Shown here: positions 7,379 to 56,539 of the stretch, one piece after another
Numbering within the stretch: position 1 is the first letter of the stretch
Layout: every line of letters begins with the position of its first letter
DNA from: Candidatus Pacearchaeota archaeon
GTDB taxonomy: Archaea; Nanobdellota; Nanobdellia; Pacearchaeales; GW2011-AR1
Reading direction: 5' to 3'
DNA: 56,680 nt
NCBI GenBank assembly: GCA_016188825.1
Contig: JACPHA010000012.1
Coordinates: 1 to 56,680 of the forward strand
The notes under the pieces: generated by a model
What the model saw: only the letters and a program-made list of their open reading frames with translations
Told to the model about the DNA's origin: nothing
Database searches by the model: none
Program-made: the position numbers and the translations under genes

Positions 7379-10300
7379 TTAACTCACCAATTTGAAAGCC
7401 GCAATGGCTGAAGCATAATTGTCATCTTCATCATAGCACCATATTTGGATTCCATAATACTGGGCTGTTCTTCCCGAAAGCGCGTAAGTGTAGCGATGGG
7501 TAGTTCCTCCAGTTGTCAGGCCTGTAGAGCCCGACGACCATGTTGAATTACTCCCGTCATAAGATGATCTATAATTGCTTGAAACATATTCTGTATAATA
7601 TGTGTTTCCTGTATAATTATATAGTGTTGTATTGCAAGCCCCTATTGTCTGTGCGCTCGCATTGGTTGAATTAGACGAAGTAGAATTCCAGTCGTTACAA
7701 TACCAATTATAGAAATTGCCGTAGTTAACAAGATAAACACTGCACTGGCTATTTTCCGTTGTAGTAAAGTTTACTTGTAATGAGGACAAATTGTAAGTTC
7801 CGTTGTTTGCCGGCGCAGCGATTGTTATATTCGGTGCAGTTAAATCTTTTACTCTGACATTTCCGTTTGTTATTGTTGCTGTTCCACCACTTCCAGAAAC
7901 ACTTGCTTTTATGTAATAATATCCTTTTGTCCAACCTCCGGAAGGAGCATTTATTGTTATTATCGCCCTGCCTTGACTGTTTGTGCTTGTGCCTCCCCCA
8001 ATTAAGCTCCACGTGGCATCTGTATAACTCCTGCACCACTCACTCCAGCAGCTGTTTCCCGAATAAGCATACTGAACATTAGTTATTGTAAGATTAACAG
8101 CGTTATAGCTTGAATTTTGAGTTACCAATCTTATTGTTATTTTTTCATTAGGCATAAAGTTATATTTCCAATTTCCATTAGAATCAACATTTTCAAAAGA
8201 ACCACCATATATTTCTCTTCCTTCTATATAAATCCCGCTCCAATCTTCAAATCCAGAAGAGCCATCAGCCGTTGTCCAGACAGAATAAATATAGTTATAT
8301 CCAATCTTCCATCCTGTGATAGGAGGATAAATTGTAACATTTTGTGTTCCATTAACAGTGCAATAACCTGAAACATTTGAATAACAGCTTCCAACGCTGA
8401 ATACATATTCTTCCTTTGTGCTTCTGTAATTGTCATATCTCCATTGATAGAGCTTGGTTAATCTTCCGCTTGTGCTTGCTCCACTTAAAGGTTTTGTTAA
8501 TGTAGCTGGCACAACAACATTTTGATTAGTAAGCTTGCTTGTTCCTCCCTGGATGCTTCCCCAACTAATTTGGAATGGGACTGCTTTAAATGACAGCCAT
8601 CCGGTTTGGGTGTCATTAACAAGGTTGTCCTTAACGACCACATTCAGATAATGATAACCTCCCCAGCTTCCTCCTCCCCAACTTCCGTTGTTAGGACAAA
8701 ATGTCGCGTTGGCTGTGGCATTAAACGAGCCGCTTGTATAATTTGTGTAACTAATTTTACTGCTTCCGCTCCCACCCCAGATATTTTCATTAATGCTTGT
8801 TATTGAATAATTCCCGTATAAGACAGAATTACTGCTCCAGTCAGGGTCATAAACAGCAATCGTTGTATTTATGCACTGGTCAGAATCAACAGAATATGTA
8901 TTTGAATTAATTTGAACTCTAAATGGCTGAACATTAAACCATAGCCATCCCGTTGAGCTGTCATTTTCAGAATTCAACAAGTTAAGCTCTCCCCAATAAT
9001 ACCCTGTCGGCCAGGTTCCATTTCTGAATGTAACGTTTATAACTCCGTTTCCATTAACTGCCAACGGAGTGACATTAATTTCCTCGGGATAATTATATTC
9101 CTTTGACTGGTAAGTCTGTGAGTCCCACGTTCTCAAAACAATATCATTAACAGTCGCATTAAGATAATCTGTTTGATTGTATCTTACAAAACTATTGTTA
9201 TACCAATATCCCCACTTATAGCTTTTTGTTGTTGTAACATTAAAGTAAATCGGGCTATTTCCTCTTATGCTGTACTTATAACCGCTTCCATTTGAATTAG
9301 TAGGCTGGGTTTCAACATAAAAAGCAAGTGTATTAAACCACGCATATCCTGTATCTGTTCCGTTAACATCCAGCACAACCGAATAATATCCCGTGCCCCA
9401 GCTGCCTGTTGTCGTGTTTATCTGAATCAAATATTTGCTTTGATTTTGGTTGTTTGCATTCCAATACCACGGGCTGGATTGATTCACCGCAATACTGCTT
9501 GCTGCATATTGGCTTGAATTTAAGTCCTTGCAAGGCCATTTTCTGCAATCTTGTATTTTTTTAACTCCAATGGTTACTGTTTCTCCTAGGCTTGCTCCTC
9601 CAGCATCATAATAATTATATGCCCCCGCTTGCGAAATTTTTACATACAACGTTATATTCTCTTTTGAGTTAAAATAATTCTTGTAACTGCATCCAGTAGA
9701 TAAGCATTCAACAGGCTGTCCGTAAACATCCCACAATTTTATCCCAAACCATGCATATCCATAATCTGTATCCCCAGACGACGTTGTTCCTTGTAATATA
9801 ACCCTATAATATCCTGTTTTCCATTTTCCACCAGGAGCATATTGCGCGGGCAAGGAGATTGTTCCACTTCCGCTTGAAATGCTCGATGAATTTGTTTGAG
9901 AAGCATTATACCCAGAGTCAACAGGCGGCCAGAACCATTCTCCGTCTCTTCCCTGATATTCTATTTTCTTTACTGTAACAGTCCCGCTAATGCCCCCGCT
10001 GCTTCCAGATGTGCTCCACCAATTGTTTCCCGCCTCGTAAAGTTGAACATTTAAAGTAATGTTGTTTGTTGGGCTGTTTTGCCATGTCTGACTCCATCCG
10101 TATAGATAAAACGATCTTGCTTCAAATCTTCCATAGGCAATTGAACTTGTGCTATCTTGTCCAACAATATTTAATTTAACAATGCTCACTCCGCCATCCC
10201 ATTTTGTTAAAGGTTTTACAGTGCAGGTATATCCTCCAGAATTATCATCGGACTGGCAAACAGATTCGCTCAAATTAAAGCCTTGCAACGCACCAGATTC

Positions 10301-12334
10301 CGCATTCCTTACTTCTACAATCGTTAAAGTAGCATTTGTCACTCCTTGTTTTGTTGTATCAGTTGCGCAAGCAGAACTCATCCCATAAACACTGCTATTT
10401 CCACTTGAGTTGAGGGCAGTTGCTCTTCCCAAAGGATTATTTGCCTGCGTTAACTTAATCTCAAAATAAACCGTGTCTGTTGTCTTAAACTGCCAGACAT
10501 ACCTCATTCCGCTGCCTCCGCTTGATGTTGCAGAATCCTTCGTGACTATGCAACTATCATAAGGATTCACAATAAACTTCGCATTCGCTCCAGTTGTTCT
10601 GTTGTTCCCAAATAAAAATACATCATACAACCCGCCCCCTCTTGGAACATCTAATTTTATTCTTTGTAATGTACTATTCCAAGCCCACTCGTAAGCCGAA
10701 TTTGAAGAATTAACAAGCTCAAAATTATTAACTTGCGTATAAGAGAATTCAGAACCATTCATATAAGTAATGAGAAATATTTCAGCATCAGATAAATTAA
10801 TTTGCGACGAGGTTAAATTATATGCGCTCAGTGTTATATAATCAAATTCATTTGTTCCGAATAACTCTTTTATATTTCCGTCTTTATCCGTTGATTGAGC
10901 AGACATAACAGTATTAATCACATTAATTATTTGTGTTTCCGTTTGAATGCTTCCGCCATAAGCAAGAGTTACATGCAATGTGTACTTCCCAAGATTGCTC
11001 GGCGAGTTGAGAGAAAACTCATAACACCCGCTTTTTTCACAACTAGCGTTCCAAACAGCATTAGTAGAGAAAATTATATTATTAAGGTTGTCCTTTATGC
11101 TGATCTCAAAAAAGCTGGAATTTATTCCTCCTATTATGCTGCCATTGCTTCTTACTGTCGGGTAAGCCTCAAATCTCATTGTCTTATTTGGAAAAACACT
11201 ATATTCATATTCAAAGCCTGAATTTACTGTTCTCTTATTTATGCTCAAGCCCCAATCCTGCACCTCAAAGGAGGCGTATGCAGGCACGCTCCCGTCTCCG
11301 CTCTTTGTGATAGTTAAGTAAACTCTGTATGGACCATAGCTAAATGTCAACGAATCAAGCCCGAATAAGAAAGAGTTTGTGAATGAATTATTGCTATTAA
11401 GCTGCGTTGAGTCAACCGTTTTAACAACATTTCCCGAAGAATCAGCAATATATCCTGAAAATGTGTAAAGGTCACTTGAGCTGGCATTTGTAATTCCAAC
11501 TTCCACTCTTGCTTCCTCGCCAACAGCAAATATATTTTTTAATGATTTCCCCAACCCATCTTTCATGTATATGTTAAAAGAAAATGGCACGACAATAAAA
11601 GAGCTAAAAGCCTTGAATCCGCCAATCTCAACAATATAATTTCCATAACTAGAAGGAGAAGTCGCGCTTACAGAGCATTTTCCATTATTTTCGGTTGTGC
11701 AGTTAAAGCTCGTTAAAGAATCTTTTGTAGAATTTCTTATGCTTCCGTTAATAGAAACATTGCTGACATAAATTATTTTGTCATTTATCAACCTTACTGC
11801 TTCCGCTTTAATCATGAGCGTTTCCGACGGATTATAAACCGCTCTTTCCGTGCTAGCTCTTAATAAGTCAAGAGTTTTATTTACAACATTTATTTCAACT
11901 TCAGAAAACCATGTTGCATTATCTGGAGTTATATATACCGCTCTTATATAATAATTTCCAGCTGTTGACGGAGCGTTTATCAAAACAGCGCCCGGATAAT
12001 AATTACTTCTTGAATAAAAGCTCCCATTTGCATCTGTTGTTGGCGTATAGTTGCTGTGAAATGTTCCATTTCTTACTGTCATGGTAATATTTATAGTCAC
12101 ATTAGCCAAGGCAGCTGAGTTAGAAACCACGGTTCCATTATTGCTGTAATTTGCCTGGTACAGGTAGCCTCTTATCTCTATTCTCTCCCCCGTTGTATAA
12201 ACAGTATCAGGAATAGTAAAGAAAATGTCATCGACATAATAATTTGCTAATGCAAACTCTAAAGATAATAAAGTTAGGAAGAAAGTCCCCGTGGAGAAAA
12301 AAAACATTTTCCTTAAATTTCTAATGCCAACCAT
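7379..12334 (-). CDS. Giant secreted repeat protein, macroglobulin/adhesin-like (1651 aa)
   Basis: A signal peptide (residues about 1-30, ending EFALA) is followed by beta-sandwich repeats. The N-terminal third resembles macroglobulin-type or MG2 strands (VYTTGERIEIRGYLYQ, ERAVYNPSETLMIKAEA). The middle has about seven units with the pattern W-x-x-GYY ... G-[YW]-[AL]-WF-x4-F-x-V, for example KWKTGYYRVIL, SWGTGYYSVVL, TWPTGYYWGEL, spaced by about 120-190 residues. N-glycosylation sequons are dense throughout and Cys is sparse. There is no C-terminal membrane segment, while the coupled downstream 434-aa protein has one. Probably an S-layer-like or adhesive surface protein; no catalytic motif seen. 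Confidence 0.7.
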   Translation of the reverse strand: MVGIRNLRKMFFFSTGTFFLTLLSLEFALANYYVDDIFFTIPDTVYTTGERIEIRGYLYQANYSNNGTVVSNSAALANVTINITMTVRNGTFHSNYTPTTDANGSFYSRSNYYPGAVLINAPSTAGNYYIRAVYITPDNATWFSEVEINVVNKTLDLLRASTERAVYNPSETLMIKAEAVRLINDKIIYVSNVSINGSIRNSTKDSLTSFNCTTENNGKCSVSATSPSSYGNYIVEIGGFKAFSSFIVVPFSFNIYMKDGLGKSLKNIFAVGEEARVEVGITNASSSDLYTFSGYIADSSGNVVKTVDSTQLNSNNSFTNSFLFGLDSLTFSYGPYRVYLTITKSGDGSVPAYASFEVQDWGLSINKRTVNSGFEYEYSVFPNKTMRFEAYPTVRSNGSIIGGINSSFFEISIKDNLNNIIFSTNAVWNASCEKSGCYEFSLNSPSNLGKYTLHVTLAYGGSIQTETQIINVINTVMSAQSTDKDGNIKELFGTNEFDYITLSAYNLTSSQINLSDAEIFLITYMNGSEFSYTQVNNFELVNSSNSAYEWAWNSTLQRIKLDVPRGGGLYDVFLFGNNRTTGANAKFIVNPYDSCIVTKDSATSSGGSGMRYVWQFKTTDTVYFEIKLTQANNPLGRATALNSSGNSSVYGMSSACATDTTKQGVTNATLTIVEVRNAESGALQGFNLSESVCQSDDNSGGYTCTVKPLTKWDGGVSIVKLNIVGQDSTSSIAYGRFEARSFYLYGWSQTWQNSPTNNITLNVQLYEAGNNWWSTSGSSGGISGTVTVKKIEYQGRDGEWFWPPVDSGYNASQTNSSSISSGSGTISLPAQYAPGGKWKTGYYRVILQGTTSSGDTDYGYAWFGIKLWDVYGQPVECLSTGCSYKNYFNSKENITLYVKISQAGAYNYYDAGGASLGETVTIGVKKIQDCRKWPCKDLNSSQYAASSIAVNQSSPWYWNANNQNQSKYLIQINTTTGSWGTGYYSVVLDVNGTDTGYAWFNTLAFYVETQPTNSNGSGYKYSIRGNSPIYFNVTTTKSYKWGYWYNNSFVRYNQTDYLNATVNDIVLRTWDSQTYQSKEYNYPEEINVTPLAVNGNGVINVTFRNGTWPTGYYWGELNLLNSENDSSTGWLWFNVQPFRVQINSNTYSVDSDQCINTTIAVYDPDWSSNSVLYGNYSITSINENIWGGSGSSKISYTNYTSGSFNATANATFCPNNGSWGGGSWGGYHYLNVVVKDNLVNDTQTGWLSFKAVPFQISWGSIQGGTSKLTNQNVVVPATLTKPLSGASTSGRLTKLYQWRYDNYRSTKEEYVFSVGSCYSNVSGYCTVNGTQNVTIYPPITGWKIGYNYIYSVWTTADGSSGFEDWSGIYIEGREIYGGSFENVDSNGNWKYNFMPNEKITIRLVTQNSSYNAVNLTITNVQYAYSGNSCWSEWCRSYTDATWSLIGGGTSTNSQGRAIITINAPSGGWTKGYYYIKASVSGSGGTATITNGNVRVKDLTAPNITIAAPANNGTYNLSSLQVNFTTTENSQCSVYLVNYGNFYNWYCNDWNSTSSNSTNASAQTIGACNTTLYNYTGNTYYTEYVSSNYRSSYDGSNSTWSSGSTGLTTGGTTHRYTYALSGRTAQYYGIQIWCYDEDDNYASAIAAFKLVS

Positions 12335-27403: not shown

Positions 27404-27949
27404 TTAATTGTGCCTAACCTTCTCCCAAACAACCTTGCTCTTGCAAGGCACTTTTGACTTAACATCTATCAAAACCTGTCTTGCAACTCGTGCGGCTCTT
27501 TCATTTGTGCAAGAAACAAAAAATATTTCTTTTCCAGGATTCACAATAGCCGCTCTGCCCACAGTAACACCAAAAGAATGTTTCATTCCACTTGATAATC
27601 TGTCTGCTCCTGCAACCGCCGCAACACTTTTATTTTCTCTTAAAATATGGTGCGGATAAACCATGATTGAAAAATAATAGTTTCCCGGAATTTCATTATC
27701 TAATTTTTTATTCACCTGCATCCTGCCTGCTTCCAATGCATTATCTCTGATTTGAACTTTTTCACCCGCAACTAGCTTGACAGAATATTCATGCTTCCCA
27801 TGATTAAATCCCTGCTGGTCTCCCATGTTAAACTTTGTTATCTTACTCTGCGGAATGCTTTTTATATATGCCTTATCTCTTCTTCCAGATTTCCTTGTGT
27901 AAGGTCTTACTTTCTTCTTTGAATATGCCAGTGCTTTTCTCAATCCCAT
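27404..27949 (-). CDS. rpl10e: Large-subunit ribosomal protein L10e (uL16)
   Basis: A 181-aa ribosomal protein near the peptidyl-transferase/5S region. Family motifs: PYTRKSGRRDKAYIKSIPQS, KITKFNMGD, VQIRDNALEAGRMQVNK, YYFSIMVYPHHILRENK, GADRLSSGMKHSFG. The start at 27949 (MGLRKALAY) is chosen over an upstream Met because it lies one base after the stop of the preceding gene and matches family N-termini. It is last in the operon eL33 - unknown - L10e. Confidence 0.95.
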   Translation of the reverse strand: MGLRKALAYSKKKVRPYTRKSGRRDKAYIKSIPQSKITKFNMGDQQGFNHGKHEYSVKLVAGEKVQIRDNALEAGRMQVNKKLDNEIPGNYYFSIMVYPHHILRENKSVAAVAGADRLSSGMKHSFGVTVGRAAIVNPGKEIFFVSCTNERAARVARQVLIDVKSKVPCKSKVVWEKVRHN

Positions 27950-27950
27950 T

Positions 27951-28211
27951 TTAATTTCCCTCCGCTTTTTTTTTAGAAATATTCGGAAAATTGACTTCTT
28001 CAACAATTACATCTTTTCTATTAGCCCATCTTTCCGGATTTTTCTCCGCCAGTTCAATTATTCTATTAATAACTCCTTGTCTTCCTCTACCATCAATGGT
28101 TGAAACTTTAAATTCAGGCAACCTTAGTGAATAAACTTTATCGTCCTCTAGCTCATTTGCATTAATTCTTTTGCCCTCATAAACGACAAATATTTCTCTC
28201 CTTTCTTCCAT
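27951..28211 (-). CDS. Unrecognised protein between eL33 and L10e (86 aa)
   Basis: Not recognised; it does not match L31e, which is much more basic. The body is EIFVVYEGKRINANELEDDK, YSLRLPEFKVSTIDGRGR, QGVINRIIELAEKNPERWAN and KDVIVEEVNFP, a mixed alpha/beta fold. The start at 28211 is placed one base after the eL33 stop, with a GGAGG site 11 bases before it inside the eL33 coding sequence. The stop lies one base before L10e. The tight spacing implies co-translation and a translation-related role (inference). Confidence 0.75.
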   Translation of the reverse strand: MEERREIFVVYEGKRINANELEDDKVYSLRLPEFKVSTIDGRGRQGVINRIIELAEKNPERWANRKDVIVEEVNFPNISKKKAEGN

Positions 28212-28582: not shown

Positions 28583-29590
28583 TTATGAGCACAAATGTCC
28601 TGTTGGTTTAATTGGAGCATACGAACCCAAGTTGCTGACCGCATCATTCCTATCATTGCTATCTGTGGTGCCGTCTGCATTAATGTCGCTCCTATAATTA
28701 TTAGTTCCAAAATCTGCGGAAATATAGGATAAATCTCCAATGTCTGTAAAAGTGTCATTATTAGCATCTCCATAAACAACTGCGTAATCTATCTTAAAGT
28801 TATTAACTTCGGAAAATCCTCCAGTATTGCGCACAGAATACCATCTTTGGTTTTGCAAAACAATACCATTTTCTGTCATCCTTAAATCATTTCCAGTTAC
28901 TGCAAAGGTAAATGATCCAGACAAATCTGTTCCATAATTGCCGCCATCTAAGATTTCTTGGATTAATATCTGTCCAGTTCCAGGAAGAGTTATGGCATGG
29001 TCAAATCTTAGCAAGATTGTATTATTTTTAATCCTCGGAAGAGTGCTATCACACGCTGGTTCTGCACTGCTCAAAGTTGCCGGTGTTTGAGATATTTCAC
29101 TTCCGCTTGCTCCTACCTCTCTAATTTCATAATCATCACTTGGAATTTGGGCCTTTTTTGTATTTCCTTCCTCGTCAAATATTGCAGCAAAAACAGAAAT
29201 TTTTGTGATATTATCGGTCAAACCATAATCAGCACCGTTAATCACCACGCTAATTCTCTCTAACTCATTCATCTTAGTTGTGTTATAATTATATACTGCA
29301 GCCATATTTCCGTTTTTATCCTCGACAGAAAAAACAGGAAAAGTATTTACATCTCCTCCACCTGTTTCTCTCTCGGCAAAGAAAGTTACACTTTTCCCAT
29401 CCACACTTGGAACAACACTATTAGCAACTATCGAGTATCTTATCTCAAGCAATTTTGATTCTGAGCCCAAAGCACTGCCGCTGCGCCCAATCGTGCCTCT
29501 GATAAATGTCCAAACAAGACCAATAGCAACCAAAGCGAGCAAAACAATTAATACCGTCGTAACGATTTCACTCAAACCTCTTTTTTTCAT
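28583..29590 (-). CDS. Pilin-like surface protein with a dockerin-like C-terminus (335 aa)
   Basis: The N-terminus KKRGLSEIVTTVLIVLLALVA is a type IV pilin-like or archaellin-like signal and hydrophobic helix. Residues about 30-165 form a beta domain shared with the next gene (FPVFSVEDKNGNMAAVYNYN, MNELERISVVI). The C-terminus holds two calcium-loop repeats of dockerin type, GDANNDTFTDIGDLSYISAD and SDINADGTTDSNDRNDAVSN. Dockerins bind cohesins or calcium in surface complexes. No cohesin was recognised here. It is paralogous to, and 31 bases downstream of, the gene at 29622-30725. Confidence 0.78.
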   Translation of the reverse strand: MKKRGLSEIVTTVLIVLLALVAIGLVWTFIRGTIGRSGSALGSESKLLEIRYSIVANSVVPSVDGKSVTFFAERETGGGDVNTFPVFSVEDKNGNMAAVYNYNTTKMNELERISVVINGADYGLTDNITKISVFAAIFDEEGNTKKAQIPSDDYEIREVGASGSEISQTPATLSSAEPACDSTLPRIKNNTILLRFDHAITLPGTGQILIQEILDGGNYGTDLSGSFTFAVTGNDLRMTENGIVLQNQRWYSVRNTGGFSEVNNFKIDYAVVYGDANNDTFTDIGDLSYISADFGTNNYRSDINADGTTDSNDRNDAVSNLGSYAPIKPTGHLCS

Positions 29591-29621
29591 CTATTTAATA
29601 AATTTCTTTTATTTAAAAAGC

Positions 29622-30725
29622 TTACGAGCAACCCCTTGTCCTGTTTAAATTCACACAGCCCTGATTAGTATCAAAAATATTCCCGGAACCAATAGTATTT
29701 ATATCATTTGAACAAAATAAATCACCACCATTTCCGCAGACAAAATTGTTACTAATTACAGAGTTCTCAGGGTTGTTGACGGTTGTTGAGTTCACAAAAG
29801 AGGTAGAAGCACCAATGTAAATCCCAACACCCCAAGATTCTAATAATTTATTGTTTTCAATCCTGTTATCAGAGCCCCCTAACAAGAGAACTCCGATAGC
29901 CCCTGCGTAACCGTCATTCCCGCTATTATTTATCGTGTTATTAAAAATCAAAGACTTATTTGTTTCTTGAATCCAGAAACCAAAAAAACCTCTAATATCG
30001 AAATTTCTGATTATAGCATATTTTAAGCCCTGGCTAAAAACCGCCCCATTCGTAATACCACATCCTAAACAATTAATTGTGTGCCCCCGTCCATCAAGTG
30101 TTACATCATCTGCACTAATATGGAAACACTGGGGCTGGGAGTCAGAAGAATTTAAAACTATAAAATCTATATCTTTTGTCAGCCTATACTCTGTATTTTC
30201 CTTGTCAAGTGTTCCGCATTTATCAATATAAACAACTTGTTTTTGAAATGTGGAAGCATCATAAACATCACTCGGATCTCTTGTGGTTATTACCTCGCCC
30301 GCCTTGTTGAAAGTGGCCGGATAGACAAGAATTCTTTTCAAACTTTCTTCATATCCAAAACCATGCTCTTTATTTTTAATATCTATTTTTACTCTTTCTA
30401 ATTCATTGACCGGAGTATTATTATATTTATAAACTGCCATTCTATTATCTTTTTCATCTTCAAAAACAAAAACCGGGAAAACAGCAGCAGAGCTTCCTAC
30501 AGGATCTCGCTCAACAAAAAATAAAACATCATTGTTCCATCTTAACCTCATTGTGTTATCAATAATCGAAAAGCTTGTTCCAAAAAGTCTTGTTTCTTCC
30601 TCAATATCTTCGCCCGCCCTGAAAAGAACATTCCGTAAAAAAACCCATATGAGTGCTATTGCAACTAAAGCCAGAAGCACAATTATTACAGTAGTCACAA
30701 TATCACTCAACCCTCTTTTATTCAT
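29622..30725 (-). CDS. Pilin-like surface protein with a right-handed beta-helix C-terminus (367 aa)
   Basis: The N-terminus NKRGLSDIVTTVIIVLLALV and the following beta domain (FPVFVFEDEKDNRMAVYKYN, VNELERVKIDI) are paralogous to the protein at 28583. After residue about 165 comes a parallel beta-helix with NosD-like repeats: YRLTKDIDFIVLNS, DVTLDGRGHTINCLG, NKSLIFNNTINNSG, DNRIENNKLLESWGVGIYI, ENSVISNNFVCGNGG. Beta-helices commonly bind polysaccharide or act as adhesins. Cys residues near the end could form disulfides. It is first in a two-gene pilin-like cluster. Confidence 0.78.
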   Translation of the reverse strand: MNKRGLSDIVTTVIIVLLALVAIALIWVFLRNVLFRAGEDIEEETRLFGTSFSIIDNTMRLRWNNDVLFFVERDPVGSSAAVFPVFVFEDEKDNRMAVYKYNNTPVNELERVKIDIKNKEHGFGYEESLKRILVYPATFNKAGEVITTRDPSDVYDASTFQKQVVYIDKCGTLDKENTEYRLTKDIDFIVLNSSDSQPQCFHISADDVTLDGRGHTINCLGCGITNGAVFSQGLKYAIIRNFDIRGFFGFWIQETNKSLIFNNTINNSGNDGYAGAIGVLLLGGSDNRIENNKLLESWGVGIYIGASTSFVNSTTVNNPENSVISNNFVCGNGGDLFCSNDINTIGSGNIFDTNQGCVNLNRTRGCS

Positions 30726-30852
30726 GATTTATATAATTAATCCTTATTTAAAAATCCTACTAAAAACTAGACGATGATTTGCATAAATATATATTGAGCT
30801 TTTTAAATTAATTTATCTGTGGCAATTTAATATTCACGGTTCTAAAGTTTTA

Positions 30853-32709
30853 CTAAAACTCCACGCTAAATTCCCCCAACTCCTTCTTCAAAATTTCCAT
30901 GACTTGAGAAGGCACATTAAACTTGAATCTTTCTTTTGTATTATCCAAGGCAGACTCAAATTCTTTCCTGTCAACATCCGTTAATTTTTTATTTTCTAAA
31001 TCAATTTTTCTTATTTTACCTTCGTCAACAACAAAAAAGCCCTTGTCTGTAGCAACTATCTCTGCTTTCTTTTCCCCATGTTGGATTATCATTATTCCTC
31101 TTTCTGCGGCGACAAGCTCTTTTCTCTGCAAGTATTCTGTCAGAGCCTCAATCAAATCAGAAGACTCGCGCATTGTTCTCTGCATTTCAGTCAGGGCCAG
31201 CTTCTTGCTTCCTTTATCTTTCGACTTCAATTTCGCAACTTCTTTTGCTATGCTTAGCATTCTTTCCTGAATCCTGCCCTTGTCTATCATCTCTTTTTCA
31301 AAATCTTTGACCAGTTCATCCTGTCCCTTTGGCCCGAAAATTTTTGTCATCAGAGAAAATGTTTCTTCATGAATCTTCTCTGCCTGTTTTTCTTGAATTT
31401 TTTTCTCTAACTTTTCCCTTAATTCTTTCATTTTATTTGAATAATCTTTAGATTCCTGAACCAAGGCATCGATGTCCTTTCCAGGAATATCTTTTAATTT
31501 GCCGTGCTCATAATCTTTGTAAAGCTTTACAACTTTCTCCAATGTCTTTATTTCTTTTTCTGTCATAACTTTTTCTTTATCAACCAAAACTTCTTTAACT
31601 TCCTGCACAATTGTTTTTGGAACTGGAGGCGCATGCCCGGCAAGCATCATCATTGCCTGGGTGGGCGTAACAACACCCCAATAAACATCAACCATCGCAT
31701 CCATCAGTCTTCTCTTCACAATCTCTTCTGTTCTGTCGCCTTCTTTCATATAAAGGTCAATCGCTTCTGGGCTGGGTTTTATCCTTCCCATCTGCAAAAG
31801 CCTCTTCCAAGGTATGAAAGTTCCTCGGTCATACAGCGGCACTCCGTCTCTGATAAAAGTGAACATCACGGGCTGGGCGTCTTTAACAGACTGCCAGAAG
31901 TCAGTAAGCAAATAAACCTGAACATTTAAAATATTCTTAACTCCAGCCAAAACAGTCGCTTCTTTCACAAACTCATAAACAATCTTTCCTCTCAATTTCT
32001 CTAACAGTTCAATTCTAGACATTCTCTTCACGTCGGTATCGTCAATTATGACAAAAGTGTCAACATCACTTGTCTTATCTGCAGTTCCTCGCACAAGACT
32101 GCCCCCAATTGCATAAGTCGCCACATAATGAATTCTTCCCACATTTAGCCAATTCAAAACAAGTGTTTTGTGAATATTTGCAGCCCTCAAAGCTCCTAAA
32201 AAACCATTATCATACAAAGGAAAACTCGCAGAAATTGCGTCCAAAAATTCAAACTTTGAATCCAAGCCATAATTCCATAAATCAATCTCAGATGTCTTTA
32301 TATGAACCCACAAATTCTCTCCGGATTCTTTTGCATATTTCACAACCTCCGGTTTTATTTTATTCATATTTTTATACTGCTCTTCCGGAATAATCATGAT
32401 TGCATGTATCGGCTTCGTGGCCACAATTTCCTTAGGAATATTTTCATCCTCCTCAAACATAGGGAAAGATGTCGGTGGAAGAATTCCTATCGCTCTTGTA
32501 AAATTAAATTTCTTAACAATTTTTTTCTTAAAATCTTCTAACTTATTCTTCAGTTTCTCGAAGTCGATTATGTGTTTTGCATGCGCTTGTTGTTCAGTTC
32601 CTTTACCCGCTAAAGAAGGCATCCCGCCAGTTTCAGGAACCAGCTTCCCGTCATATTTTTTAACTCCAGCCAAACTATCAACCAAATTTCCTTTTTTCTT
32701 GCTTTCCAT
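30853..32709 (-). CDS. Nucleotidyltransferase-domain protein (618 aa)
   Basis: The central part carries a Pol beta-type nucleotidyltransferase core: GGSLVRGTADKTSDVDTFVI at 202-221 gives the GGS and DxD motifs. The flanking regions are helical and charged, with a coiled-coil-like segment (about 405-480) and a long C-terminal region. The exact substrate is unknown; it may modify RNA, nucleotides or proteins. An N-terminal tail (DSLAGVKKYDGKLVPETGG) looks disordered. A 34-aa reading frame lies 36 bases upstream on the same strand. Confidence 0.75.
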   Translation of the reverse strand: MESKKKGNLVDSLAGVKKYDGKLVPETGGMPSLAGKGTEQQAHAKHIIDFEKLKNKLEDFKKKIVKKFNFTRAIGILPPTSFPMFEEDENIPKEIVATKPIHAIMIIPEEQYKNMNKIKPEVVKYAKESGENLWVHIKTSEIDLWNYGLDSKFEFLDAISASFPLYDNGFLGALRAANIHKTLVLNWLNVGRIHYVATYAIGGSLVRGTADKTSDVDTFVIIDDTDVKRMSRIELLEKLRGKIVYEFVKEATVLAGVKNILNVQVYLLTDFWQSVKDAQPVMFTFIRDGVPLYDRGTFIPWKRLLQMGRIKPSPEAIDLYMKEGDRTEEIVKRRLMDAMVDVYWGVVTPTQAMMMLAGHAPPVPKTIVQEVKEVLVDKEKVMTEKEIKTLEKVVKLYKDYEHGKLKDIPGKDIDALVQESKDYSNKMKELREKLEKKIQEKQAEKIHEETFSLMTKIFGPKGQDELVKDFEKEMIDKGRIQERMLSIAKEVAKLKSKDKGSKKLALTEMQRTMRESSDLIEALTEYLQRKELVAAERGIMIIQHGEKKAEIVATDKGFFVVDEGKIRKIDLENKKLTDVDRKEFESALDNTKERFKFNVPSQVMEILKKELGEFSVEF

Positions 32710-50553: not shown

Positions 50554-53500
50554 CTAATACTCTCTATTCCTTATTCTGTTTATACCAATCAACAGTCCGA
50601 TTATCCCTGCAATAATTACCAACCCCATAATGCTCCAGAATATTATTTTTTCTGTATTGCTTTTTTCCCTCGGTTGCTCTTGTGTTGTTGGTATTGGTTG
50701 CTGTGGCTGTTCTGCAGGTGTTGGAGTCTCTTCACTTGGTATTGTTGTCTTTGGTGCATTAACTATTCCACCTCCTCCTCCCCCGCTAGTTCCACCACCA
50801 CCACTTGGCCCAGTGTCTCCTCCACCGCCAGTTGTTGTTCTGTATGTGGAGAATTCACAATATGGAAGTCTCCAGACACAATTTGTTGAATTTAGCAAAG
50901 TTGCCTCGCTTGTCCTGTCAACACAATTTGCTCCACTATCATCACAATGGAACAAACTGCTACACGAACTTGAAGTTATCTTAATCCTGCATTCTTCAGG
51001 ATGCAAATTATTTACTATCTTGTCTCTTGTTTCAGATGTAAACCCAACAACTCCTCCGCTAGATATAAAATCTCCAGAATCATCAACATCTCTGACTTTA
51101 TCGTTCAATGCACTCTTTGTTAATGAAGCATTAATAAACTCAAAATATGTGGTGTTGTCATCTTTGGCTAATTTTATATTTACTCTCCTTCCAACTGCGT
51201 AGTTTGTCTTCAATCCTGAATTTGGCCCGCACACTTGTCCCTGGACATGATCAGTGTAAGTTCCATCTCTGTTTGTGTCATATGAAACAGTCCATCCGCT
51301 TGGTGCTTTTATTCTTGTCACAAAATTGCAGAATCCGCATTTGCTCTTAGGAGCAGTTGTAAATGCGCTACACTTGCTTGTCGCACACTTTCCGCCACTG
51401 TCACAAACTTTCAGCTTGTAATAATACTTAGTGTCATTTTGTAAGTTATAGCTTAATGAATTAGCACCGTTATAAATCTCTCCAGCGTGCCAGAATTTAT
51501 GTGCTCTAATTGTATTGTTTTTCAAAACTCCAACATCATAGATTGTTGTGTTTAATGTGTTGCATCTTGAATCATTTCCATAAAACTCAAGTGTTCCGTT
51601 TGTCGGCTTGCTTGTGTCATACAATATTAATGCACTATCCGTATATTCTTCTATCTTAACTCCGGTTACTTGTGGCATGCTTGTGTCATTGTATCCTGCT
51701 GAATTAACTCCTTTTGCTGTGCACTTAGGAGAATACTGACAATCCCAATCATTGCAATCGCTGTTTCCGTCATTATCATCATCAATCGTGTTAAAGCAAT
51801 CTTCGAATTTGGTAAATCCATGTCTTAAAATATCCTCGAACTTAGCGCTGTCTGCCCCAAATTCAAAAGCGCTCATTATTTCAAAATCAATTGCTCCGGG
51901 TGTTGCATATCCAGGGCCGGCAGTATCACTCGGTGTTGTAACATTTCCTGTGTTTCCAACTGTTGCAACATAAACTCTTATGTCTTTTGTTGAATCATAA
52001 AGCGTTGGGAATCTTGTCAATTCTCCTTTTTCAACACCAATCATCGGTCCGCCAATATCAGAGCACATTATTTTCTTCCACGCGCTTGTCTTAATATCAC
52101 TCAATTTCCATTTGCTGTTTTCACAAATATAAGATGTAAATGATTCGGTTGTCTTGCTTGCATTGGAATTCCATGTTGATTCGTATCTAAATTTAAATTC
52201 ATATCCGGTTGCAGAAGCATTGATTTCCAAAGCGCAACCCCCCTTAGGCGACCCATCTGTATCAAGATAGACAATCAAGTTTACAGTTTCATTTCCTGCT
52301 CCAATTATATCTGCTGCCCCGGGTGTCAGAAAAGTATATCCGCTTATTTTTTCTTTGTTGCACACAGAAGCATTAGTAAAGTCATAGACCTTTGCTCCGA
52401 ATCCGTAAGCATTGCCCATATCTTTCATTCCAAATCCGCAAATATCAACAGAGCTTTTAATACCGCTCTCCGGGCAACTATCAAATCCTAGAGGGGTAGG
52501 CTGTCCCGTCTCCATGCCATTAAATACTTCATTCATTCCGGCAGGATTGCACCAGCCGGTTGTCCATCTGCAAATGCTGTCTTGTGCAGCACTGCAAGCG
52601 CTTTGTGTTTTCTGTGAGAAGCAAGTTGGCTCGCATCCATATGTGGTTGCATTGCAATAAGCGTTTGTATTGCATAATGTAGCATTATTTACTAAAGTCG
52701 TGTTGCTCCAGCATTGGTCTGCCAAATTCATGCAGAATCCTTGTCCGTTTGGATTCCACCAACAACCGTTTGTTGCATTGCATCCTCCAGCTACTGAAGT
52801 ATACTGCCAGCAGTCTTTAACCCAATTAACTTCACACCCTGGATTGAAATTATCAGTCCAACCACATGTTATGTTAATTGCGTTTTTATCCGTGCATAAT
52901 GTTTTGTTGCCATCATATTTATAGCATTCTGCTCCAAATGATCCTCCACCCCCAGATCCTCCACTAGAGAAACCATCTTTAGGCGCGCACCATCCAGGAT
53001 TTCTCCACTTGCATCCTGTTGTTGTCTGGCAGTTTGTCTGGTTATTATAATTTGTTGTGTTAGAGCAAGCAGCCATTTGCGTTTCTTCACACCATCCAGA
53101 ATCTGCTTTCCATAAACATCCTGTAACCGATGTGCAAGCACTTTGACTATCATGTAAAGTTTGGTTAGAGCATGCAGGTCTACAACTATTCATAAAACTA
53201 TCCCACGAGCATTTTGGAGACAAGCTGTTACAAGAACTCTGGCTAAATACTTGCCAGCATTCATCCATTTTATTCCCGCACCATCCGTTTCCTCCTCCAG
53301 AACTATTAAACCACAAACAATTATTTCCAGCAGCGCTGTTACAGCTATTTGAACTTGTGTAATTCCAGCAATTTCCACTCCAGTTTATCTCGCAAAATGC
53401 ATGACTATATTGATCTATTCTCCAAGAGCATCCACTTGTTATTTCACAGCCCGATTTATCGGTATTATACTGCCAACAGTTTTTAGGAGCAAAATCTTTA

Positions 53501-56463
53501 TGGTCGCACCATCCTCCCTGAGTTTTGCACCAATCTGTTCCAGCACCGTCACCACCGCACCAAGTGTCATTTGTCCATCTACAATCTACAGTGCAAGCAC
53601 TTTGATTCTTTCCCATACAAGTTTCAGCTATCTTCCAATCTTGCTCGCACCATCCACTTCCTCCTCCAGAACTAAAAGTTCCATTCTGCCATTCACAATT
53701 TTGATTGGTTGTTTTATAATATTGATAGGTAACATTTGTTAAGTTGCCTGCTCCGCCTCCGGAAACCATAAATGTGTTATTTGTAAAGTTAATTGTTTGT
53801 GAATTATAATTTACACTAAAGTTCCCCGCCAAAGATGTCCCTGAAGTGTTTTTAATTACCACAGAGCCAACAACCCAGCCGCCCTCAAGATTTGCTAACC
53901 CAAATGTATAACTTTCATTAATATTGTTTCCTGCTAATCTTGCCACTGAGATATTTAAGGTTTCATTAACACTCGTCGCTCCAAGACATGAAGGTTGATC
54001 ACCATCATATTTCCAGCACTGGCTTCCCTTGAAGTCGCACCAGCTTCCCCATTTATCAGAAAACCATTCGCATTTATTATTTATGCAAGTTGTGTTGTCT
54101 GTCCAGCTAAAACAATTTCCCGAAACAAAACCACAGAATGAATCTGAATAACATCCTGGATCAGCACAATCAGTCAATGCATCGTTATCATCGTCAACAG
54201 CATTCCAGCATATTTCAACATCTCCGGCTATATTTGCCACACAACTTCCATCATTACCAGAACCCTGCCATTTACAACTTCCACTTGTGTTAGTAAGATC
54301 TGCCCTGCCGTCGTTTGCGCATTCTGCTTGTGTAGCACATCTATCACATGCGTCTCTGCAAGTCTTTGTTTCTTTATCCACACAATACCCCCCAGTTATT
54401 GTTCTGTTATCAGTAATCCACTTGCAGTAGGTGCTATAATCGTTACAATAATCTTTCGGAGTTCTTGTTCCGTTTGCTCCCTTTGGATCTCCCTTAAATG
54501 AGCATCCTCCGCAATTTGTTGCACTGCATTCTTCAGCAACCCCTTTCTTGAACTGCTCTTTTGAGTTGCAGAAACCCAGCCCATTCGGCGCATTGCTGTT
54601 AATTTCAAACTCGCAAATTCCTAATGTAGAATCTAAGCAAGCCTGTTTAGCATCGGCAGTTGTATTATGCTTTGTTCCATCTAACTTAAACTCGCAAGCA
54701 AAACAAGCCTTGTTGCAGTTTCTCTCTTCATCAAATTTATACTCGCATCTTCCAGTCGGCACAGAAACATTTCCTTCACAATAATTCTCTGTAACCCATC
54801 TTCCGCCAACTGCTTCGCATGTTTGCCTGTTCTCTATTGTGATTAAATTCTGTGTCCTATTTCCCCAGATATCCGATGTTTTTACAGTGCATTTTGCCGG
54901 CGTTGTAGAATTATCCCATTTGCAAGGCCAATACCATGGACTTCCAGCCAATTGCTCACAGCTTGTTTTTAATGTTGCCTCTTCACATGACTTTTCTCCA
55001 TTCGGCGTTTTATCAAGATCTGTCCAACATGAGCTAGTTGCCCTGTTTTCCTTGCATGTCCCATTCTGCCATGTGCAACAAGTTGATAAAACAGATATAT
55101 CGTTGCATAAGCTAGATTCATTAATATAAGTGCATTTTATTCCGTCAGTTGTGATATTTGTTCCGTAATTGTTTCCTAATTCATCGCATGCAGCGCTTGA
55201 ACTTGTATAATTGCATCCTAAAAGATTATTGCAATGGGTGCTGTTCAAGTCAAATATATAGCATCCAGGATTCCAATCATTTGTTATGCTTCCATTTACT
55301 CCTCCACCTATGGTAGTCCAGTTTGGCTCTGTGCACTTTCCTCCCGCACTTACGTTATTTATATTATTATACTGCCACCAGCAATAAAATGTGTCATAAC
55401 AGTTTCTTTCAGTTGTTATATTTGCACAGGTTGTTGTTGAAATATCTTTATAACACCACCCGTTTGTTAAGTTCCCAGAAGGATTTCCGCTCCAAATACA
55501 AGCCAAGCTATATTGATTATTTACGCATTTGCTTTGGTTTCCCCCCTTAATAGAATCAAATGTCCAGCAATTAACCTCCTCACACCAACCCCCAGAAGTA
55601 TAGTTTGTCCATGTGCATGTTGCCTTGTTTGTGCATGTTGCCTGTGTTGTAAACTCCCAGCAAGACGCAGTGTTACAATATCCATTATTCCACGTGCAGT
55701 CTAAACTATGTGTTGTGTTTGCGTCTGTGCATCCTGTTTGGTTGCCATCAAAGCTGTAGCATCCTATTTCCTGACAATATCCGGAACTTCCAGAACTCTG
55801 CCATTTACAATATTTATTGTTATTACATGCGGTTTGATTAGGATAAAGTATCGTGTCTCCACAACTGCTTGTCGTGCAATAATTCCCGCTGCTAGACCAT
55901 GTGCAATTTTTTCCATTCCAAGGATCTTTCGCTGCGCTGCATGTAGCAGAGGCATTATAATTCCAGCACCCTTTGTCCTGGCATTGCCCCCAGGCGCATC
56001 CTGTTGTGTTTTGACAAGTTGCTTGACTATTAATGTTCCAGCAATCCACTCCGCCCCCGCCCCCCAGACTATAACATGAGCCGCTAAATGAGCACGACCT
56101 TCCAGCAGAATTATTTACACAAGCATTTTCTCCTTTCCCAGAAAAACTCCAGCAACTTAATTGCTCGCATGTGTTGTAAGTGCTTCCTCCTTGCCATGTG
56201 CAATTTTTTCCAGTTATTGAAGTTGTAGTGCAGGCATTTTGACTAGTCAAACTCCAACAGTTTAATTCTTCACACCAACTTCCCCAATTATCGCTTTTCC
56301 ATTTGCATGCACTAACACCGGAGCAAGTTGCATTTGTTGTGTACTGCCAGCAGTCGGCACCAGGCGCAGAAGCAAAATTTAATGAAAATAAGACAGAAAA
56401 AACTAAAATTAGCGACGCCAAAACAAAAAAGTTCTTTTTACTAATAATATTTTCGTCGTCCAT
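50554..56463 (-). CDS. Giant Cys/Trp-rich secreted repeat protein (about 1969 aa)
   Basis: A signal peptide (FFVLASLILVFSVLFSLNFA) leads to dozens of short units of about 35-45 residues, each of the form CW-x(4-6)-[TQ]-x2-C-x(4-6)-C-x-W-x(6-12)-WCE, for example DCWQYTTNATC, CKWKSDNWGSWCEE. Two inserts resemble calcium-binding CxNxxDDDNDxxxDCxDxxC motifs (EICWNAVDDDNDALTDC; EDCFNTIDDDNDGNSDC). A fibronectin-like region (about 1700-1800), a Pro/Gly-rich stalk and a C-terminal membrane segment (IIFWSIMGLVIIAGIIGLLI) end it. The ATG at 56463 follows GGTGAT; an in-frame ATG lies seven codons upstream. A disulfide-rich, glycosylated surface protein. Confidence 0.75.
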   Translation of the reverse strand: MDDENIISKKNFFVLASLILVFSVLFSLNFASAPGADCWQYTTNATCSGVSACKWKSDNWGSWCEELNCWSLTSQNACTTTSITGKNCTWQGGSTYNTCEQLSCWSFSGKGENACVNNSAGRSCSFSGSCYSLGGGGGVDCWNINSQATCQNTTGCAWGQCQDKGCWNYNASATCSAAKDPWNGKNCTWSSSGNYCTTSSCGDTILYPNQTACNNNKYCKWQSSGSSGYCQEIGCYSFDGNQTGCTDANTTHSLDCTWNNGYCNTASCWEFTTQATCTNKATCTWTNYTSGGWCEEVNCWTFDSIKGGNQSKCVNNQYSLACIWSGNPSGNLTNGWCYKDISTTTCANITTERNCYDTFYCWWQYNNINNVSAGGKCTEPNWTTIGGGVNGSITNDWNPGCYIFDLNSTHCNNLLGCNYTSSSAACDELGNNYGTNITTDGIKCTYINESSLCNDISVLSTCCTWQNGTCKENRATSSCWTDLDKTPNGEKSCEEATLKTSCEQLAGSPWYWPCKWDNSTTPAKCTVKTSDIWGNRTQNLITIENRQTCEAVGGRWVTENYCEGNVSVPTGRCEYKFDEERNCNKACFACEFKLDGTKHNTTADAKQACLDSTLGICEFEINSNAPNGLGFCNSKEQFKKGVAEECSATNCGGCSFKGDPKGANGTRTPKDYCNDYSTYCKWITDNRTITGGYCVDKETKTCRDACDRCATQAECANDGRADLTNTSGSCKWQGSGNDGSCVANIAGDVEICWNAVDDDNDALTDCADPGCYSDSFCGFVSGNCFSWTDNTTCINNKCEWFSDKWGSWCDFKGSQCWKYDGDQPSCLGATSVNETLNISVARLAGNNINESYTFGLANLEGGWVVGSVVIKNTSGTSLAGNFSVNYNSQTINFTNNTFMVSGGGAGNLTNVTYQYYKTTNQNCEWQNGTFSSGGGSGWCEQDWKIAETCMGKNQSACTVDCRWTNDTWCGGDGAGTDWCKTQGGWCDHKDFAPKNCWQYNTDKSGCEITSGCSWRIDQYSHAFCEINWSGNCWNYTSSNSCNSAAGNNCLWFNSSGGGNGWCGNKMDECWQVFSQSSCNSLSPKCSWDSFMNSCRPACSNQTLHDSQSACTSVTGCLWKADSGWCEETQMAACSNTTNYNNQTNCQTTTGCKWRNPGWCAPKDGFSSGGSGGGGSFGAECYKYDGNKTLCTDKNAINITCGWTDNFNPGCEVNWVKDCWQYTSVAGGCNATNGCWWNPNGQGFCMNLADQCWSNTTLVNNATLCNTNAYCNATTYGCEPTCFSQKTQSACSAAQDSICRWTTGWCNPAGMNEVFNGMETGQPTPLGFDSCPESGIKSSVDICGFGMKDMGNAYGFGAKVYDFTNASVCNKEKISGYTFLTPGAADIIGAGNETVNLIVYLDTDGSPKGGCALEINASATGYEFKFRYESTWNSNASKTTESFTSYICENSKWKLSDIKTSAWKKIMCSDIGGPMIGVEKGELTRFPTLYDSTKDIRVYVATVGNTGNVTTPSDTAGPGYATPGAIDFEIMSAFEFGADSAKFEDILRHGFTKFEDCFNTIDDDNDGNSDCNDWDCQYSPKCTAKGVNSAGYNDTSMPQVTGVKIEEYTDSALILYDTSKPTNGTLEFYGNDSRCNTLNTTIYDVGVLKNNTIRAHKFWHAGEIYNGANSLSYNLQNDTKYYYKLKVCDSGGKCATSKCSAFTTAPKSKCGFCNFVTRIKAPSGWTVSYDTNRDGTYTDHVQGQVCGPNSGLKTNYAVGRRVNIKLAKDDNTTYFEFINASLTKSALNDKVRDVDDSGDFISSGGVVGFTSETRDKIVNNLHPEECRIKITSSSCSSLFHCDDSGANCVDRTSEATLLNSTNCVWRLPYCEFSTYRTTTGGGGDTGPSGGGGTSGGGGGGIVNAPKTTIPSEETPTPAEQPQQPIPTTQEQPREKSNTEKIIFWSIMGLVIIAGIIGLLIGINRIRNREY

Positions 56464-56539
56464 TATCACCACTTTTTTAAACAAATTTACATGGTTAACA
56501 ATTTCTTTTTATTTATAAATCTTGTGGTTTAAATAATGC

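Follow-up and report, generated by a model that had tools for sequence, protein, structure and literature searches.

The window, by which we mean the whole stretch of DNA analysed (56,680 nucleotides), is contig C20 of the genome of a tiny uncultured archaeon (1.0 Mb, 83% complete), referred to hereafter as G000. Among named genomes its closest are MAGs of Candidatus Pacearchaeota and Nanoarchaeota. Within it, two adjacent genes sit in a housekeeping block made up of a nucleotidyltransferase-domain gene, a ribosomal protein L10e gene and a PEP-synthase-like gene. The two are called DOC, for the protein with the dockerin tail, and HEL, for the protein with the beta-helix tail. Positions are those of the window.

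27404 to 28006, minus strand: flanking gene of the ribosomal protein L10e/L16 family, one edge of the block (PF00252; synteny).
28583 to 29590, minus strand: DOC, a dockerin-tailed modular pilin of 335 aa.
28622 to 28774, minus strand: dockerin-like tail of DOC, residues 273-323.
28778 to 29113, minus strand: intermediate domain of DOC, residues 160-271 (no family match; low model confidence).
29123 to 29590, minus strand: pilin module of DOC, residues 1-156, a long alpha1 helix and a beta-sandwich head.
29576 to 29590, minus strand: putative class III leader of DOC, MKKRG, with predicted cleavage between G5 and L6.
29610 to 29619, minus strand: TATA-like TTTTTAAATA, 19 nt before the ATG of DOC (found by eye).
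29622 to 30725, minus strand: HEL, a beta-helix-tailed modular pilin of 367 aa.
29640 to 30077, minus strand: right-handed beta-helix tail of HEL, residues 217-362.
30258 to 30725, minus strand: pilin module of HEL, residues 1-156.
30745 to 30754, minus strand: TATA-like TTTTTAAATA, 19 nt before the ATG of HEL (found by eye).
30853 to 32709, minus strand: flanking nucleotidyltransferase-domain protein of 618 aa, the other edge of the block (PF01909).

Both reading frames are complete, start with ATG and are separated by 31 nt, and they lie where the initial annotation had placed them. That annotation described them as paralogous pilin-like proteins with exchangeable ends, and both parts of the description held. 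The modules of DOC and HEL are 43% identical over 153 positions (residues 1 to about 156; z = 58.5 against shuffled sequences), while the tails show no similarity at all (z = -0.4). In a tree of the modules the two proteins are sisters (support 100/95). The identical decamer at the same spacing before each start codon is consistent with a duplicated leaderless promoter.

The type IV pilin-like N-terminus claimed for both proteins was also recovered. The leaders MKKRG and MNKRG, in DOC and HEL respectively, are followed by about 22 hydrophobic residues, which is the class III pattern of [KR]G and a hydrophobic helix, and K3, G5 and S7 of DOC are nearly invariant among 35 relatives. The archaellin/type IV pilin N-terminal domain model TIGR02537, with a cut-off of 20 bits, gave 24.4 bits for DOC and 19.5 bits, just under that cut-off, for HEL. 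AlphaFold models of both proteins contain a long alpha1 helix and a globular beta head over residues 10-160. In DOC (pLDDT mostly 93-98) a 44-residue helix (residues 6-49) precedes about eight strands, and in HEL (pLDDT mostly 85-95) the helix is likewise followed by a beta-sandwich head. A beta domain of roughly 130 residues had been proposed as common to the two; it is indeed common to both, but the beta-sandwich after the helix is nearer 105 residues. A Foldseek search with the DOC model, in which the tail portion is meaningless, returned no match with E<0.001; the archaellum structure 5tfy was among the weak matches (E = 0.008).

The tails had to be judged from their sequences, as the models have pLDDT values below 50 there and the underlying alignment is shallow and covers the pilin module only. 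The two calcium-loop repeats described for DOC are present and complete: both follow the pattern D-x-N-x-D-x3-D-x2-D (D275, N277, D279, D283, D286 and D302, N304, D306, D310, D313), so that all ten liganding positions (D or N at positions 1, 3, 5, 9 and 12) are intact. A lineage dockerin profile built from 17 dockerins of related genomes, with DOC excluded, scored 20.6 bits on this tail, and the best of 4,999 shuffles reached 13.9. The Pfam dockerin model PF00404 gave 13.1 bits on the tail alone against a cut-off of 22.9; its E-value of 0.11 across 24,736 models corresponds to about 4e-6 for one model. The best sequence match in the PDB was the dockerin-bearing chain 2jnk (E = 0.029), and the second helix of the tail is irregular. 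By its sequence, we regard the DOC tail as dockerin-like, real but divergent, and do not file it as a Pfam member. It may resemble the Ig-plus-dockerin tails of planctomycetes. Translated searches of plasmids and phages and a scan of viral contigs gave nothing useful on the origin of the dockerin tail, and the GC content of the DOC-HEL pair resembles that of its surroundings, so there is no compositional sign of foreign origin. The tail of HEL matched the beta-helix family PF13229 with 26.3 bits, above the Pfam cut-off. The "NosD-like beta-helix" of the initial annotation was therefore right as to the beta-helix; likeness to NosD is one of fold only, since the NosD family model TIGR04247 scored 21.5 bits against a cut-off of 300.

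The initial annotation had proposed a search of the genome for other proteins with the N-terminal module. DOC has relatives in 123 of the 138 genomes of the family. In the fetched loci, the module profile matched 100 distinct proteins, a set gathered by similarity whose fractions are no census; 60 of these carry tails of at least 60 residues, and the module is complete in 49 of the 60. These 49 have tails of 60 to 885 residues, and the longest protein of the set reaches 1032 residues. Among the tails that Pfam identified are LamG (seven proteins), dockerin (four at E<0.01), beta-helix, MopE, DUF4215, fn3 and Fib_succ_major; Cys-rich tails are present as well. The lineage dockerin profile matched seven module proteins, DOC included, although five of the seven contributed to the profile and match it partly by construction. 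Plain short pilins with the same type of module coexist with the long-tailed ones. A pilin module joined to a domain that is not confined to pili is found in HEL (PF13229), in DOC (lineage profile) and in the 49 long-tailed members.

The module tree shows that the tails have been swapped repeatedly. DOC and HEL group with three proteins from congeners that carry other tails, and the labelled entries require at least 14 changes of tail type, with labels that were assigned partly by eye. One such label, polysaccharide lyase, merely names the distinct tail of a 1032-aa protein of G009; the identification itself, made by eye, was dropped after Pfam, NCBIfam and the PDB gave no match. In two further genomes (G128 and G079) a dockerin-tailed pilin adjoins a Cys-rich-tailed one, with modules 52-53% identical and unrelated tails. 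Such fusions recur throughout the family, well beyond a single pair.

The flanking nucleotidyltransferase-domain protein has orthologs 61-74% identical in all nine congeners of G000. The block of nucleotidyltransferase, L10e and PEP-synthase-like genes is intact without a pilin in G001 to G004, and in G005 the same block holds one MopE-tailed pilin and, separately, a secreted beta-helix protein that stands alone, as though the two parts were not joined there. The two genes adjoin each other (L095:4102-6902, on contig C21 of G005; PF13229, 5e-21); for the 685-aa protein of that genome the beta-helix reading was made by eye. On an unpolarised tree, gain of pilins at the block in G000 and G005 and loss from the others cannot be told apart. 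Elsewhere in the window are two large secreted proteins: one of 1651 aa, rich in Ser, Thr and Asn, with a sub-threshold MG2 match (7379-12334), and one of 1976 aa, Cys-rich, which is anchored in the membrane at its C-terminus and matches no Pfam family (50554-56484).

No pilus gene is adjacent to DOC and HEL, and the pair lies apart from all three T2SSE ATPase loci of G000 (C8, C14 and C19). The genome does encode a pilus machine. T2SSF platform proteins adjoin the ATPase at C8 and C19, pilins adjoin it at C8, and C11 has a plain 146-aa pilin with the same N-terminal type as DOC and HEL. The prepilin peptidase that the initial annotation suggested looking for is a single A24 enzyme at C14 (G000:C14:70259-71206), so that peptidase, assembly ATPase and platform protein, the set expected for an archaeal type IV pilin, are all present, and the reading is not refuted on the ground that assembly genes are missing. 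The peptidase is adjoined by some eight small proteins in a row, most with a KKAQ-like start and a hydrophobic stretch, which seem to form a cluster of pilin-like genes (L176, G000:C14:64789-69469). On another contig, a giant protein with a pilin-like N-terminal segment extends beyond the end of the assembled sequence (L023:11123-15874, G000:C18) and has a thermolysin/fungalysin-like HEYTH motif, FG-GAP repeats, DUF4215 and CARDB.

The dockerin without a visible cohesin, to which the initial annotation drew attention, is still without one in G000 itself, where neither PF00963 nor two lineage profiles found a cohesin in the 83% of the genome that is available; among its relatives, in contrast, a cohesin-like protein was found. 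PF00963 matched nothing in G000 or its nine congeners and exceeded its cut-off in four other genomes of the family, in which cohesin and dockerin can share the same secreted proteins. Dockerin matches occur in all nine congeners. The lineage-cohesin profile matched in G001 (1.4e-5) and weakly in G008, and a cohesin-like head is present in 7 of the 10 genus genomes (G001, G002, G003, G004, G005, G008 and G009). Compared by hhalign with lineage cohesins, which themselves match solved scaffoldin cohesins, this head gave 93% and E = 3.5e-7; the proteins have no Pfam cohesin match and are called cohesin-like for that reason. They form an unannotated genus family with a signal peptide, the cohesin-like head, a Gly-rich linker, two Ig-like domains and a C-terminal membrane anchor (an architecture read partly by eye), at these positions.

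L086:4198-5451, L178:541-1824, L093:17264-18568, L182:1501-2781, L184:1486-2802 and L185:1435-2835: cohesin-like surface proteins.

By sequence this membrane-anchored protein of the congeners is a candidate partner for the dockerin tail, and it offers a specific, testable one. The relatives of these proteins in G000 were rejected as cohesins: they keep the stalk of two Ig-like domains and a transmembrane segment, and their heads differ. A tandem of surface proteins in G000 (L199, G000:C13:30922-35797), at least two of which combine the Ig-Ig-membrane-anchor stalk with unrelated heads, represents a second case of head swapping.

Taken jointly, these data lead us to favor, as the probable reading, that Pacearchaeota-like DPANN archaea have modular (minor) type IV pilins that are duplicated, exchange their tails, are assembled by the pilus machinery and display the tails. 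DOC and HEL would have arisen when one pilin gene was duplicated in tandem and the C-terminal cargo was then exchanged. Prepilin peptidase would cleave off MKKRG or MNKRG and expose the helix, which would then be inserted into a type IV-like filament or a short pseudopilus by a PilB-like ATPase and a TadC/T2SSF-like platform encoded in trans. The tails of DOC and HEL would be displayed outside the cell, where the beta-helix of HEL may bind or process glycan. The dockerin of DOC may fold with two bound calcium ions and link the filament to a cohesin-like protein on the surface of cells from the same population, or of a different organism. The initial annotation, which saw in the pair pilus subunits with adhesive or scaffolding tips, is partly supported.

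How far the pilus itself is involved can be argued in other ways. For archaea a serious alternative is display of the bindosome kind, in which the pilin module would be a sorting or anchoring device and the processed proteins would stand in the S-layer or in a short pseudopilus, without a long filament. Archaea offer a precedent in functional binding proteins that carry class III leaders (PMC4187195), tails of up to 885 residues would be bulky for a filament shaft, and a protease-like protein of G000 also has a pilin-like start. The module, however, is a complete pilin with helix and head rather than a mere leader, plain short pilins of the same type coexist with the tailed ones, and the match to the NCBIfam BasA family is negligible (NF053669, 11.7 bits against a cut-off of 230); we consider this alternative rather unlikely. 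That the hydrophobic segment is an uncleaved anchor, and DOC and HEL are membrane-anchored ectoproteins in which pilus machinery plays no part, appears highly unlikely. The genes do lie outside any pilus operon and leader cleavage is a prediction, but the near-invariance of K3, G5 and S7 is what a processed leader would show, an A24 peptidase is present in G000 and the folded head is, in the models, that of a pilin.

A separate question, compatible with modular pilins for the rest of the protein, is what the DOC tail does. It could well serve as a C-terminal cap stabilised by calcium, or as another kind of protein-protein module, a possibility we place somewhat short of even. The low PF00404 score and the lack of any cohesin found in G000 favor it, and G079 and G128 are rich in dockerins and show no clear cohesin, which leaves room for another role of these dockerins. 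The ten intact liganding positions speak against it, as do the dockerins in every congener and the cohesin-like protein in seven of them. The most far-reaching version of the favored reading makes pilus subunits of Pacearchaeota interchangeable plugs, with a filament dockerin docking by calcium onto cohesin-like, membrane-anchored receptors of neighboring cells or a host and new specificities arising by tail swapping between tandem genes. We hold it to be improbable as a whole; if true, it would amount to an archaeal cohesin-dockerin adhesion system.

Modular pilins in these archaea would extend to archaea an idea described for bacteria. The results suggest a mix-and-match kit of functional domains for cell-surface display, and its family-wide form in Pacearchaeota-like archaea, with swapped tails, is of more interest than a single pair. 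With tails swapped on a conserved carrier, candidate recognition domains can be listed at once for the whole group, a list that bears on how DPANN archaea recognise and hold hosts. In a limited open-access literature, where absence is weak evidence, we found no description of dockerin-bearing archaeal pilins.

Among known systems, bacterial modular pilins are the closest kind. PilB and PilC of Streptococcus sanguinis are modular type IV pilins (PMC8179133, PMC9934059), and a survey of more than 1,200 such proteins in 264 architectures, LamG-type lectins (PF13385) included, was keyed to the bacterial N-terminal motif IPR012902, with neither archaea nor dockerin in its text (PMC8179133). Like these, DOC and HEL join a small pilin module to an unrelated functional domain, and LamG is frequent in both sets; they differ in having an archaeal pilin module as carrier, and dockerin and beta-helix among the tails. 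The archaeal bindosome (GlcS, AraS and the Bas system), known from the sugar-binding proteins of Saccharolobus (Sulfolobus) solfataricus (PMC4187195), also puts a type IV pilin-like leader on surface proteins and is assembled by a pilus-like system, but its cargo consists of ABC-transporter binding proteins, unlike that of DOC and HEL. HEL shares beta-helix repeats above the Pfam cut-off with the right-handed beta-helix proteins of the PF13229/NosD type, and differs from them in lying far under the NosD family cut-off and in being borne on a pilin. Lastly, archaeal dockerins beyond cellulosomes have been described on binding proteins and S-layer proteins, and not on pilins in the accessible part of that report (PMC9012536). 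DOC is alike in being a dockerin protein of an archaeon without a cellulosome, and some family relatives of G000 also have cohesin and dockerin proteins; as far as that part of the report goes, it differs in that its dockerin is carried on a pilin.
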